A stretch of DNA of 64,000 bases, taken from Flavivirga jejuensis. Lineage in GTDB: Bacteria; Bacteroidota; Bacteroidia; Flavobacteriales; Flavobacteriaceae. This document shows, piece by piece, positions 7,874 to 42,358 of the stretch. The notes below the pieces were generated by a model that ran no database searches, was not told the DNA's origin, and saw nothing but the letters and a program-made list of their open reading frames with translations. The DNA lies in contig NZ_JAUOEL010000002.1 in the NCBI RefSeq assembly GCF_030540765.1, positions 806,001 through 870,000 on the forward strand, written 5' to 3'. Position 1 is the first letter of the stretch. Each line of letters opens with the position of its first letter. Position numbers and translations under genes: made by a program.

Positions 7874-9340
7874 TTAAATCCCATTTATAAAACTTCCATA
7901 AGGATCTTTAAACTGAATCCCCTCAGTAAATCTTTGTTTAGTTAATTGCTTAAGTTCTACTAATGCCCAAAGTATAAATTCCTTTACAAAATAACTGTCT
8001 TCTTTAGATATTTTAGGCTGATATTTACCCAACAGATCATCTAAAGGAGAAATAGCATCTAATAAACTTCTATATTCTTTATCACGTAGATCGTCTAACA
8101 ACTCAAAACCATCTTTCTGATTAAAAAACCAAGATATAATATCGTCATAAGGACTTTCATCTTCTTGTTTTTTTAGTTTTTCAATCTTCGGAAAAAATTC
8201 ATTGAACAAATTTTTAATTGCTGCTCCTATTAAATTATAAGCAACCATTGCTGCTCCCTCCTGCTCCCCTTCATAAACCAATTCTACCTTTCCTGTAATA
8301 GATGGAATAATACCAACAAAATCACTTAAACGTAACATCGTGGTTTTTTCTCCAGATATTAAAGCCCTGCGCTCGGCTGTACTTAGCAAGTTTTCCAGTG
8401 CCGTAATGCTCAATCGGGCACTTACGCCACTTTTAGCATCAATAAAATCATTTTCACGAGCTTCAAATACAATTTGTTCTAAGAGGTCTCTTGCTAGGTC
8501 TGGAACTAAAACCGTTTGTTTTTGTCCTTCTACCAATCTGGCTTCTTGTTCTGTTATTAATCTAGCCGTTTCAATATCTATTGGGTAATGGGTTAATATT
8601 TGAGAACCAATTCTATCCTTTAAAGGGGTTACAATACTCCCTCTATTGGTATAATCTTCAGGGTTTGCCGTGAATAAGAATTGAATATCCAATGGTAATC
8701 GTAATTTAAATCCTCTAATTTGAATGTCCCCTTCTTGCAAAATATTAAACAAGGCTACTTGAATTCTTGCTTGCAAATCTGGTAGCTCATTAATTACAAA
8801 TATGCAACGATTTGCTCTTGGTATCATACCGTAGTGGATCACTCTATCGTCTGCATAACTCAATTTTAAATTAGCTGCTTTAATAGGATCTACGTCACCA
8901 ATAATATCAGCTACCGTAACATCTGGAGTTGCTAATTTTTCTGCAAAACGTTCACTTCTATGCAACCATGAAATAGGGGTTTTGTCTCCTTTTTCTTTTA
9001 TCAATTCTACTGCAAATCTAGAAATAGGATGTAATGGGTCATCATTAATTTCAGAGCCCTCAACATAAGGGATATATGCATCTAATAAATTCAACATTAA
9101 ACGAGCTAAACGCGTTTTTGCCTGTCCTCGCAATCCTAAAAGATTGATATTATGACGTGATAAAATGGCACGTTCTAACTCAGGAATCACCGTATTTTCA
9201 TAACCGTGAACACCTTCAAAAGTTGTTTCTTTATTCTTTATTTTCTCAATTAGATTGCCTCTTAATTCATCTTTTATAGATTTAGATTGGTAGCCTGCTT
9301 TTTTTAATTCACCGAGTGTTTTTATACTTTCTATATTCAT
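7874..9340 (-). CDS. MoxR/magnesium-chelatase-like AAA+ ATPase
   Basis: A 488-residue cytoplasmic AAA+ protein. The Walker A region is GLRGQAKTRLAR, a variant of GxxGxGKT; Walker B is CIFVINELPDL, with Asn at the usual Asp position followed by Glu; sensor 1 is LFTANPEDY. The domain is of the magnesium-chelatase ChlI/MoxR type, whose members work as chaperone-like ATPases with a von Willebrand A (VWA) partner, often to insert cofactors or mature protein complexes. The partner is the VWA protein at 10874-12004, upstream in the same direction. The two are now separated by the DUF559 repeat array (9496-10909), which may affect co-transcription. Its last ~30 codons are duplicated as a relic at 2375-2466. 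Confidence 0.85.
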   Translation of the reverse strand: MNIESIKTLGELKKAGYQSKSIKDELRGNLIEKIKNKETTFEGVHGYENTVIPELERAILSRHNINLLGLRGQAKTRLARLMLNLLDAYIPYVEGSEINDDPLHPISRFAVELIKEKGDKTPISWLHRSERFAEKLATPDVTVADIIGDVDPIKAANLKLSYADDRVIHYGMIPRANRCIFVINELPDLQARIQVALFNILQEGDIQIRGFKLRLPLDIQFLFTANPEDYTNRGSIVTPLKDRIGSQILTHYPIDIETARLITEQEARLVEGQKQTVLVPDLARDLLEQIVFEARENDFIDAKSGVSARLSITALENLLSTAERRALISGEKTTMLRLSDFVGIIPSITGKVELVYEGEQEGAAMVAYNLIGAAIKNLFNEFFPKIEKLKKQEDESPYDDIISWFFNQKDGFELLDDLRDKEYRSLLDAISPLDDLLGKYQPKISKEDSYFVKEFILWALVELKQLTKQRFTEGIQFKDPYGSFINGI

Positions 9341-9495: not shown

Positions 9496-10909
9496 TTTAA
9501 CCCTCCGAATTTTCATTCTGAAAATCCACCTCCCTTAAAAATAAGGGAGGAACAAGTACTATTTATATTTTTAACTTCCTCTAATACGTTTTTTTCTATT
9601 TGTTTCATAGTTTAATCTAAAAAAAGAGGTGTTTTATTTAAAATGTTCTTTTATTTCCATAAATACAGATCCTAAATTTTCAAAAACCATTTTGTTTTCA
9701 AATCTTATTACTGTATAACCTAATTCTGTTAAATATTTTGTTCTTTGATCGTCCTTTTCTTTAGCTAATTCATTGTTATGAACTTCACCATCTAATTCAA
9801 TTATTAGTTTTTCTTTAGAACAATAGAAGTCTACAATATAGTTTTTAATACTGTGTTGTCTTGTAAAACGTCTTCCTTCAAATTGTCTTGATTTTAAATG
9901 TTTCCACAAAAAAGCTTCAGCTGGTGTTAAGGATTGCCTTAATTCTGCTCTTCTTTCTTTTAGATATTTTAGTGAATGTATTTTTTGTTTCATTATAATA
10001 TGTTTAACCCTCCGGATTTTCTTCTGAAAATCCACCTCCCTTAAAAATAAGGGAGGAACAAGTACTATTTATATTTTTAACTTATTCTAATACAATTCCT
10101 TCTATTTGTTTTATAGTTTAATCGTTACTGCTCTCCTCTTTAATTAAAGAGGAGATGAATTTCGATTTTTTTTAAATCGGAAGAAAGAGGTGTTTTATTT
10201 AAATATTCTTTCTACTAGTTTTATTGTAATACTTTAACGAATCTATTTTTTCTTTCATTATAGTATGTTTAACCCTCCGAATTTTCTTCTGAAAATCCAC
10301 CTCCCTTAAAAATAAGGGAGGAGCAAGTACTATTTATATTTCTAACTTCCTTCTTCTAATCCTTTTTTCTATTTGTTTTATAGTTTAATCGTTAATGTTC
10401 TCCTCTTTAATTAAAGAGGAGATGAATTTCGGTTTTTTTAAATCGGAAGAAAGAGGTGTTTTATTTAAATATTCTTTCTTCTAGTTTAATTGTAATATTT
10501 TAACAAATGTATTTTTCTTTCATTATAACATCTTTAACCCTCCGAATTTTCATTTTGAAAATCCACCTCCCTTAAAAATAAGGGAGGAGCAAGTACTATT
10601 TATATTTTTAACTTCCTCTAATACATTTTTTTCTATTTGTTTCATAGTTTGATCGTTACTGTTCTCCTCTTTAATTAAAGAGGAGATGAATTTCGATTTT
10701 TTTTAAATCGGAAGAAAGAGGTGTTTTTAGTTACATATTCTTTCCACTAGTTTGATTATAATATTTTAACGAATGTATTTTTCTTTCATTATAATATGTT
10801 TAACCCTCCGAATTTTCATTCTGAAAATCCACCTCCCTTAAAAATAAGGGAGGAGCAAGTACTATTTATATTTCTAACTTCCTCTAATACGTTTTTTTCT
10901 ATTTGTTTC
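9496..10909. repeat. Tandem array of ~265-bp palindromic units around a DUF559 gene
   Basis: Five units each open with TTTAACCCTCCG: A 9496-10002 (with the DUF559 gene), B 10003-10267, C 10268-10532, D 10533-10798, and partial E 10799-10909. Each has nested palindromes (GAATTTTC/GAAAATCC, CCTCCCTT/AAGGGAGG; in B-D also CTCCTCTTTAATTAAAGAGGAG-type and CGATTT/AAATCG). Units B-D contain GAGGTGTTTTATTTAAATATTC, matching the DUF559 gene's 3' end, joined directly to TTTTAACGAATGTATTTTT-CTTTCAT, matching its 5' end. They therefore look like internally deleted derivatives of unit A. Units A to E also contain a copy of the last ~35 bp of the VWA gene. Confidence 0.85.
9634..9993 (-). CDS. DUF559 endonuclease-like protein embedded in repeat array
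   Basis: A 119-residue protein from the ATG at 9993. An upstream in-frame ATG at 10035 would read through the repeat hairpins and is less likely. The protein matches the DUF559 family: RRAELRQSLTPAEAFLWKHLKSRQ, GRRFTRQHSIKNYIVDFYC and LIIELDGEVH, ending with GYTVIRFENKMVFENLGSV. The D-x(n)-ELDG arrangement is the Vsr/very-short-patch-repair-like nuclease fold, with Asp and Glu as candidate metal ligands. No biological role is established for the family. Here the gene sits inside unit A of a tandem array, and the other units keep only its two ends. Orientation is the same as the flanking moxR and VWA genes. Confidence 0.85.
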   Translation of the reverse strand: MKQKIHSLKYLKERRAELRQSLTPAEAFLWKHLKSRQFEGRRFTRQHSIKNYIVDFYCSKEKLIIELDGEVHNNELAKEKDDQRTKYLTELGYTVIRFENKMVFENLGSVFMEIKEHFK

Positions 10910-12004
10910 GTAATCTTCAAAAATCATTTCACCTAATCCTTTTATACCCGTATAAAATGCTTTCCCTTGGTTGGCATAGGTAAACTCCCTTACAAACTGC
11001 ATCAAATAACTATCTTGTGCAATCATAAACGTTGTAATAGGAATATGTAAACGTCTTGCTTGTTGCGCCATGGCATAGCATTTATTGACAATATGTTTAT
11101 CTAACCCATTGCTATTTTTATAGTACTGACCATCTGGTAAACGTAAACAACTTGGTTTTCCATCGGTGATCATAAAAATTTGTTTGTTGGTATTTCTTTT
11201 TCTTCGGAGTAAATCCATTGCTAACTGTAAGCCTGCCACAGTATTGGTATGATAGGGTCCTACTTTTAAATAAGGTAAGTCTTTAATTTCTATCTGCCAC
11301 GCATCATTTCCAAACACTAAAATATCTAAAGTATCTTTTGGATACCGCGTTGTGATTAATTCTGCCAACGCCATCGCTACTTTTTTAGCTGGTGTAATTC
11401 GATCTTCTCCATAAAGAATCATACTATGACTAATATCAATCATCAAAACAGTACTCATTTGCGATTTATGAAGTGTTTCTTCAACGACCAAATCCTCTTC
11501 AGACAAATTAAAATCTCCAATCCCATGGTTGATCTGAGCATTTTTTAAACTTTCTGTCATAGATACTTTATCCAGAGCATCACCAAATTGGTAGTTTCTA
11601 AAATCGCCCGTATGCTCGTCACCAACTCCAGGACTTTTACTTTTATGGTTTCCTTGTCCGCTACGTTTAATCTTACCGAATATATGATCCAATGCTTGCT
11701 GACGAATAGCGCGTTCCGTTTTTGCTGTAATGGCCATTCCCCCTTTGCCATCAGGATCTATCTCTTCTTTTATGTAACCTTTCTTTTTAAGATCTTCTAT
11801 AAAATCATCAATGGTATAATCGGCTGTAGTAAGTTTGTATTCTTTATCCAATTCCCGCAACCAATCGATGGCTTCATCAAAATCACCCGAAGTATGAGTG
11901 ATGAGCTCTTTGAACACTTCAAAAATTTTATCAAATGGAGATTGGAAAGGTTTTTCGTACTTTTTAAATACAAATCCCTTCCTTATTGTTGTATTATTTA
12001 TCAT
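10874..12004 (-). CDS. VWA domain-containing protein, partner of the MoxR ATPase
   Basis: A 376-residue protein with a C-terminal von Willebrand factor A domain. The metal-ion-dependent adhesion site reads DISHSM, with the later ligand in MITDGKPS. The N-terminal half is charged and lacks a membrane segment, so the protein is probably cytoplasmic. Proteins of this type pair with MoxR ATPases, here the gene at 7874-9340 downstream on the same strand. The last codons (ETNRKKRIRGS and stop) lie within the outermost partial repeat unit, and the same ~35 bp recur in each of the other array units, so the array begins inside this gene. The divergent VPS10-like gene starts 110 bp away. Confidence 0.85.
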   Translation of the reverse strand: MINNTTIRKGFVFKKYEKPFQSPFDKIFEVFKELITHTSGDFDEAIDWLRELDKEYKLTTADYTIDDFIEDLKKKGYIKEEIDPDGKGGMAITAKTERAIRQQALDHIFGKIKRSGQGNHKSKSPGVGDEHTGDFRNYQFGDALDKVSMTESLKNAQINHGIGDFNLSEEDLVVEETLHKSQMSTVLMIDISHSMILYGEDRITPAKKVAMALAELITTRYPKDTLDILVFGNDAWQIEIKDLPYLKVGPYHTNTVAGLQLAMDLLRRKRNTNKQIFMITDGKPSCLRLPDGQYYKNSNGLDKHIVNKCYAMAQQARRLHIPITTFMIAQDSYLMQFVREFTYANQGKAFYTGIKGLGEMIFEDYETNRKKRIRGS

Positions 12005-41889: not shown

Positions 41890-42358
41890 ATTTATTAGTT
41901 GTTTCGCAGAGTTCCACAGAGGAAAATGAACTGTTACTGATTAGTTATTTCACAGAGTTTCGCAGAGTTGCCACTGAGTTTCACTGAGTAAAATTGACTG
42001 TTACTGAATACTGATCACTGAACACTGATGGTTATTTCACAGAGTTTCGCAGAGTTGCCACTGAGTTTCACTGAGTAAAATTGACTGTTAATAACCACTG
42101 ATTACTGATTACTGAGCACTGATGGTTATTTCACAGAGTTTCGCAGAGTTGCCACTGAGTTTCACTGAGTAAAATTGACTGTTACTGAATACTGATCACT
42201 GAACACTGATGGCTATTTCACAGAGTTTCGCAGAGTTATCACTGAGTTTCACTGAGTAAAATTGACTGCTAATAAGCACTGATCACTAAACACTGAATAC
42301 TGATCACTGAACACTGAACACTGATCACTGAACACTGATCACTGATCACTGATCACTA
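41890..42358. repeat. Tandem repeats: CACAGAG unit x4 plus ACTGATCACTGA microrepeat
   Basis: CACAGAGTTTCGCAGAG begins at 41951, 42038, 42132 and 42219, giving period 87, 94 and 87 bp. Each copy continues with (G/A)CCACTGAGTTTCACTGAG and AAAATTGACTG and a variable ACTGATCACTGA-like spacer. From about 42271 the array becomes short repeats of CACTGATCACTGAA type up to 42358. No ORF is encoded. The array ends at the stop codon of the DUF4442 gene. Related words occur at 20519-20645. Confidence 0.9.

Follow-up and report, generated by a model that had tools for sequence, protein, structure and literature searches.

What is a DUF559 nuclease gene doing inside a tandem array of palindromes? The question is raised by a locus of Flavivirga jejuensis, in a stretch of 64,000 nucleotides that we analysed as a whole (contig NZ_JAUOEL010000002.1, positions 806,001 to 870,000; hereafter the window). 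DUF559 is a common family and, to our knowledge, has no established role. We conclude that DUF559 proteins of this kind probably act as the nuclease component of a mobile element with palindromes. Such an element consists of the nuclease gene, or a miniature remnant of it, lying beside or between three-arm units that are mostly in inverted order. Each unit starts with an arm rich in C and T, followed by a hairpin formed on a copy of this arm and in many cases by another hairpin; a third arm, which repeats the purine strand, completes it. The observations behind this conclusion are the association of gene and units in several phyla, the alternation of the units, gene-less derivatives that keep the gene edges, presence and absence at fixed sites, purifying selection, and a fold shared with a homing endonuclease and Vsr. 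The same combination of gene and hairpins is met again in distantly related bacteria, in some cases in frame within essential genes, and we take this as pointing to a selfish mobile element.

The array and its nuclease gene

The array lies between a gene for a MoxR-like ATPase (7874-9340) and a gene for a VWA-domain protein (10874-12004), both open reading frames on the minus strand that were named by eye. Five A units stand in tandem at 9497-10853 with a spacing of 506, 265, 266 and 266 nt, and five direct-repeat copies of a 188-nt core (9422, 9928, 10193, 10459 and 10725) are spaced identically. Tandem Repeats Finder reported a 266-bp array with 91% matches and a score of 1565. The original prediction, made from the letters of the window, of tandem palindromic units with an intact DUF559 gene was confirmed by these repeats and by a match to PF04480 (E 1.2e-35), with the correction that the gene-bearing period measures 506 and not 507. 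The gene (9634-9993, minus strand) is an intact, stand-alone open reading frame of 119 amino acids from its ATG. Its AlphaFold2 model (predicted local distance difference test, 92.5) has the PD-(D/E)XK fold of the homing endonuclease I-Bth0305I and of Vsr. Pfam matches of the window's proteins at the element were limited to DUF559 and a sub-threshold MTES_1575.

Units were located from the sequence and with a strict detector requiring hairpin 1, hairpin 2 and the third arm, which called nine sites in the window, eight of them within the array. On the minus strand, the A unit reads as a C/T-rich arm, a hairpin on that arm (CCTCCCTT...AAGGGAGG), TGG, a second hairpin, and the third arm CGGAGGG. 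Unit A1, with both hairpins and the third arm, forms the outer edge of the array (9497-9550); A2 is directly upstream of the nuclease gene (10004-10056), A3 and A4 occupy 10269-10321 and 10535-10587, and A5 adjoins the VWA gene (10801-10853). B units follow the same plan in reverse orientation and alternate with A along the array. Three of them, on the plus strand, were also delimited by direct repeats (B2, 10132-10192; B3, 10399-10458; B4, 10663-10723). In the gene-bearing period the B palindrome is mostly lost, leaving a plus-strand remnant at 9618-9633 that keeps the third arm and lacks the hairpins. Four matches to known RNA families were obtained, every one below its gathering score.

The DUF559 gene occupies one A-B interval. 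The other three, of about 76 nt each, open with the start of the gene, its ATG included, and keep about 27-36 nt of its coding sequence in all. Aligned to the gene edges, the first two of these minus-strand linkers (10193-10268 and 10459-10534) have the 5' and 3' edges fused, and the third (10725-10800) retains the 5' edge next to an altered 3' edge. The 5' edge scored 53, 45 and 58 in the three short units, against shuffled maxima of 34, 36 and 48 (1000 shuffles each). Free alignment of the 3' edge was not significant (24, 24 and 21, against shuffled maxima of 39, 40 and 34); anchored at the corresponding position, however, TTTAAATAAAA is present in short units 1 and 2, and unit 3 has an altered form of it. 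The claim that the short units preserve the joined edges of the gene thus stood up to shuffling for the 5' edge, and holds by anchored position only for the 3' edge of two units. As the edges are retained and the 5' match beats all shuffles, the short units are best read, on the sequence, as internally deleted descendants of the gene-bearing unit.

In addition, the final ~50 nt of the VWA gene are repeated in each period, within the spacers from one hairpin 1 to the next. These copies had escaped the original prediction, which also needs correction for the loss of most of one B palindrome. Three copies on the minus strand exceeded their shuffled maxima (10057-10131, score 71 against 33; 10322-10398, 83 against 37; 10588-10662, 103 against 36), and the fourth, beside the truncated B in the gene-bearing period (9551-9617, minus strand), was recognised by eye. 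As host sequence is included in each period, we conclude that the array grew by tandem duplication, and we reject its description as a set of transposed miniature copies. Expansion in this genome was local, with no dispersal of miniature copies. The A hairpin pattern occurs at these five places only (control, 0). The same genome has two more DUF559 domains, one inside leucyl-tRNA synthetase (LeuS; locus L001) and one in a stand-alone gene (L003) that, by reading, is flanked on either side by one-hairpin palindromes. Elsewhere in the window, Tandem Repeats Finder detected an unrelated tandem array of 87/181-bp and 7-bp CACTGAA-type repeats (41936-42357).

Association and matching of genes and units

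A scan of one genome per species yielded 134 relatives, and the best 80 were taken as named loci. Read by eye, their flanks share one plan with lineage-specific letters (CCTCCC/GGGAGG/CGGAGGG; CCTTCCC/GGGAAGG/CGGAAGGG; CCCCTCC/GGAGGGG/CGGGGTGG), so that the hairpin sequence first singled out is merely one of many versions. The strict detector placed a unit within 600 bp of 74 of the 80 DUF559 genes, and on both sides of 47. Unit density was 1.2 per 250 bp beside the gene and 0-0.09 beyond 1.25 kb; DUF559 flanks held 2.35 units per kb, compared with 0.035 per kb after shuffling. As intergenic DNA in general might be rich in such units, we compared intergenic gaps: units were present in 102 of 127 gaps adjacent to DUF559 and in 12 of 103 others. 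With one locus per orthologous site, the counts were 42/55 and 2/44 at the same loci.

The association was also found in samples beyond the named loci. A separately drawn family sample comprised 149 genomes from 148 genera, a few of which (G104, G106) are also represented among the 80 loci, and 52 of its 56 stand-alone genes were examined (E below 1e-20, frame up to 250 aa). Units were detected at 27 of these 52 loci with the strict detector and at 45 with a looser one; many of the loci missed by the strict detector carry, by reading, a one-hairpin version such as CACCCCTAAAGTCCCCTCAAGGGGAC. A pattern survey found one A-unit version in 12 of the 149 genomes, 11 of which have a stand-alone DUF559 gene, as compared with 39/149 overall. 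In a phylum sample, 15 of 18 stand-alone loci were used (three at contig ends were left out) and the looser detector found units at 14, the single miss being a genome of the same family. From a plasmid collection we took 18 of 44 records, chosen for spread over Cyanobacteriota, Deinococcota and Alpha- and Betaproteobacteria; all 18 loci had units with the looser detector, 17 of them on both sides, at 2.61 units per 300-nt flank compared with 0.08-0.33 farther out. Seven DUF559 frames of 346-573 aa gave two loci with the strict detector. The suggestion that DUF559 genes elsewhere are associated with palindromes was therefore upheld in the named, family, phylum and plasmid-collection loci. We found no account of this association in the literature searched, which did not extend to subscription papers.

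Two side observations concern gene position. In G004, two DUF559 genes (L111/L119) follow one another as a direct tandem; their starts are 565 bp apart, and units lie in between. Other DUF559 genes sit within gene clusters (L296, L418, L297, L420, L417): among hpa genes on two Deinococcus plasmids, at different places, and, in Sphingomonas, in the pnt and suf clusters and before dnaG.

One alternative is that DUF559 is a nuclease of Vsr-type mismatch repair or one directed against invaders, the role proposed for Caulobacter VsrA, and that the palindromes are incidental. Palindromes adjoin the gene in every phylum sampled, far above the intergenic background where this was measured, and we regard this alternative as highly improbable. 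Its premise is compatible with a mobile element, as a selfish nuclease can damage DNA.

The units also match their nucleases. For this comparison, 144 of 146 entries were used (two with fewer than 70 readable residues were dropped), and loci were grouped by shared flanking DNA (blastn) into 59 sites with one representative each. Alignment A1 held the window protein and 69 of the 80 loci; L055, whose gene contains a stop, and ten Muricauda-type loci that are near-duplicates were excluded. Over the 59 sites, DUF559 similarity correlated with similarity of the purine runs in the flanks (Mantel rho 0.30, reached by 0 of 2000 permutations). Genomes with at least two DUF559 genes were then considered, which partly counters a species effect: the nearest homologue, from another genome and another site, proved the better match in unit sequence, relative to the paralogue within the genome, in 24 of 34 comparisons, not independent of one another (p 7e-4).

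Unit structure was conserved as well. Of 89 pairs of neighbouring units, 71 alternate (61 of 79 once overlapping double calls are removed), and the two units beside the gene are inverted at 16 of 23 sites. In the inner hairpin, pairing is conserved and sequence is not: 42 distinct inner segments, chosen by their surrounding arms only, had terminal stems averaging 6.4 bp compared with 2.7 bp when shuffled, and stems of at least 5 bp occurred in 36 of them. The third arm fits the hairpin of its own unit better than those of other sites (4.53 compared with 4.11, standard deviation 0.065).

Fixed sites, in-frame inserts and dispersed copies

The VWA-MoxR site is kept in all 12 genomes of the window genus. 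By reading, an intact DUF559 gene is present there in four (G000, G002, G003, G006), a broken copy in G009, units without the gene in G005, a lone A unit in G001 and a degenerate sequence in G008. The remaining four (G004, G007, G010, G011) lack these units and, again by reading, have a different one-hairpin pair instead. At the VWA-MoxR intergenic site of four relatives (L304, L306, L307, L308), there is an inverted pair of a one-hairpin palindrome version unlike that of the window, so the site may be a repeated target.

G005 has its DUF559 gene in a separate array ~25 kb from the VWA site. At that position G002 is array-free, its sequence matching without interruption at 73% identity. Signs that this G005 array holds a copy of the VWA end are suggestive only, judged by sequence scores of 38, 32, 37 and 36 that were reached by 1, 3, 1 and 0 of 1000 shuffles; in two further G005 arrays, the score was reached by 8 and 305 of 1000 shuffles. 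A gene-less G005 array ~6 kb past the VWA site is absent from that place in all 11 relatives, as read at the junctions. As a possible 10-nt inverted repeat is present at the two ends of this array, an ordinary transposase may have acted there. Sites without the element, which the original prediction had asked for, thus exist among relatives in the VWA-MoxR region, at the G005 arrays and in LeuS.

Inside host genes, DUF559 domains occur in frame. All eight of the frames of about 850-1280 aa that were read proved to be inserts in LeuS (three), isoleucyl-tRNA synthetase (IleS), RecG and methyltransferase-type genes, and an interpretation of these large frames as helicase-type fusions unrelated to palindromes was wrong. 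Pfam was run on six of the eight hosts and returned leucyl-tRNA synthetase for L001, from the F. jejuensis genome, RecG for L130, methyltransferase-type domains for L330, L331 and L333, and class I synthetase domains for L124, which was named isoleucyl by eye. Large-frame loci had units at 3 of 23 with the strict detector and 22 of 23 with the looser one (9/9 in the phylum set). As these frames carry element inserts, the count of 3/23 is invalid as a negative control.

The LeuS insert is present in 6 of the 12 genus species and adds about 140-160 residues without a stop; these include a DUF559 domain, and each edge of the insert has a one-hairpin unit. The other six have a short stretch there, the whole interval being 30-38 residues compared with 173-194; judged by eye, several of the short stretches form palindromes too. 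Inserts were found in IleS in 3 of 12 genomes (nine without by match coordinates, of which five were read directly) and in RecG in 4 of 12. The LeuS domain retains the conserved acidic residues, and both it and the stand-alone gene are under purifying selection, with ratios of nonsynonymous to synonymous substitution rates (dN/dS) of 0.02-0.15, where dS could be estimated, and 0.03-0.15, respectively; several dS values were saturated. Separately, LeuS of G006, G010 and G011 has a second in-frame variable stretch farther downstream, of about 56-76 residues compared with about 10.

Retention under selection might suggest that DUF559 is a host nuclease for hairpin processing or repair, its gene kept and regulated beside palindromes such as terminators or REP-like RNA structures, with the units not a spreading substrate. 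However, copies stand in frame in LeuS, IleS, RecG and methyltransferase genes, and LeuS and IleS alleles without them exist. Gene-less derivatives with fused gene edges, and unit sequences that vary between paralogues within one genome, also speak against a host function, which we consider rather unlikely.

Dispersed unit copies were found in G104, G106 and G005, and none in the F. jejuensis genome for the version in the window. In G005, eleven copies of a miniature transposon, one of them truncated, are dispersed with a captured A-B pair (L137-L144, L146, L147, L152). By eye, they have terminal inverted repeats of 12-13 nt (AACGTGAATCTTG / CAAGATTCACGTT) and apparent 5-bp duplications, and this set was probably moved by an ordinary transposase. 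We therefore rejected it as proof of transposition driven by DUF559. Of the predicted relation to miniature inverted-repeat transposable elements (MITEs), or to transposase-linked repetitive extragenic palindromes (REPs), the gene-less deleted derivatives stand, and the dispersed G005 set does not. In G104, a repeat of a few hundred bp that includes an A-B pair is dispersed in 18 near-identical copies (L213-L226, L228-L230), most of which are enclosed by the two halves of a common GTCATTCAGAG...CGAAGCGAAGAATC repeat.

It could be, then, that ordinary transposases move the palindromes in the manner of MITEs and that the DUF559 gene is a passenger. The A-B pair inside the repeat-bounded G005 copies, the pair in the 18 copies of G104 and the possible inverted repeat at the gene-less G005 array all favour this. 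Yet by reading we saw no outer inverted repeats at the window array or at the LeuS, IleS and RecG edges, and no terminal inverted repeats with target duplication, the hallmark of DDE transposases and MITEs, at the window array and LeuS edges. Nor would a single transposase make unit sequence track the lineage of the nuclease. We hold a passenger role to be very unlikely.

Several points weigh against a DUF559-driven mobile element. That the palindromes are cleaved and that the element moves we infer. The detectors were designed after some loci had been seen, and either presence or absence of the element may be the ancestral state. In the F. jejuensis genome the whole unit occurs at this site only, apart from two weak partial matches (32-41 nt, 85-88%). 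Four relatives have another palindrome version at the VWA-MoxR site, the array-free counterpart of the gene-bearing G005 array came from G002 only, as no other relative gave both flanks together, and the most numerous dispersed G005 copies bear their own terminal inverted repeats. Seven of the 52 family-sample loci lacked units even with the looser detector, although six of these show a CCCTAAAGGG-type palindrome by eye; G115 has A units and no stand-alone DUF559, and the DUF559 gene of G050 is interrupted by an internal stop. The two units beside the gene share an orientation at 7 of 23 sites, and 10 of the 34 interdependent comparisons did not favour the nearest homologue.

Proposed mechanism and comparison with known systems

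Enzymes of the PD-(D/E)XK/Vsr fold hydrolyse DNA, and we know of none that joins strands; repair-driven copying is therefore preferred to transposition proper. The nuclease would recognise the units of its own element, probably in the form of hairpins within single-stranded or extruded DNA, and nick or cut there, leaving the copying to host repair. With a gene-bearing copy as the template for repair, gene-less units would acquire the gene, as in homing; unequal repair could produce tandem arrays that take in flanking host DNA, as in the window; and rare template switching might seed new sites. Only in-frame inserts that leave the host gene functional would survive. In the window, a gene-bearing copy may have settled beside the VWA gene and undergone internal deletion of its gene, and the deleted form would then have been amplified.

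More broadly, we see an even chance that a pan-bacterial superfamily of palindromic repeats has its missing enzyme in DUF559, with the three-arm, C/T-rich repeats found in Bacteroidota, Cyanobacteriota, Deinococcota and Proteobacteria as its cognate targets and miniature offspring, spread by selfish cut-and-repair, in frame in leuS, ileS and recG, by a chemistry unlike that of known REP systems. DUF559 would gain the role it has so far lacked. If true, palindromic repeats of several phyla whose spread is unexplained would be supplied with an enzyme, and a nuclease fold not known to join DNA ends would prove able to drive a mobile element, with in-frame insertions in a helicase and in aminoacyl-tRNA synthetases among its products. 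The many matched nuclease-palindrome pairs are a ready set for work on specificity.

Among known systems, the Rickettsia palindromic elements and other REPs within genes have in common with DUF559 inserts their in-frame placement in coding genes, including housekeeping and repair genes, with inserts of some 20-82 aa. In the portion of the source available to us no enzyme is mentioned for them, whereas the DUF559 insert brings a whole nuclease domain (Di Nocera 2013, PMC3733652). Parts of the same work report CGTC-tagged REPs without a dedicated transposase (Di Nocera and others, PMC3733652), and the taxa it names in those parts (Neisseria, C. crescentus, A. lipoferum, S. meliloti) also have DUF559. 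The CGTC-stem-loop-stem-CCA core is present in some DUF559 units. A strict scan (CGTC, TGTC or CCTC, then stem-loop-stem-CCA) found it in 6 of 59 site representatives, 15 of 80 named loci and none of 17 plasmid-collection loci. As this signature is rare, we rejected CGTC-REP identity as a general statement for all units and do not claim one family; DUF559 is a candidate for the enzyme of the CGTC-tagged REPs.

Caulobacter VsrA has a DUF559 domain, the Vsr fold and an in vivo link to DNA damage, and the parts of the VsrA literature accessible to us make no mention of palindromic neighbours. Like I-Bth0305I and the Vsr-like (EDxHD) homing endonucleases, DUF559 has this fold, and occupied and empty alleles at one conserved-gene site, as in homing elements, were also seen here (of 12 genomes, LeuS 6/6 and IleS 3/9). 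Unlike I-Bth0305I, the DUF559 element lies outside introns and inteins as far as read, and it has palindromic units of its own, tandem amplification and miniature derivatives.

The likeness to REPs and their paired forms (REPINs) with the REP-associated tyrosine transposase (RAYT, TnpA-REP) extends to short palindromes, inverted pairs, alternating arrays flanking a single gene, and gene-less derivatives that are sometimes intragenic. The differences are that RAYT is an HUH (Y1) tyrosine transposase, whereas this element encodes a nuclease of the PD-(D/E)XK/Vsr fold, and that DUF559 units have a third arm and often two hairpins. Pfam revealed no HUH transposase at the DUF559 element, the window units have by reading no GTAG tag where the hairpin has its foot, and neither introns nor inteins appeared in the sequence that was read. 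We therefore file the element under neither heading; in its behaviour it is like both REP/RAYT systems and homing endonucleases.
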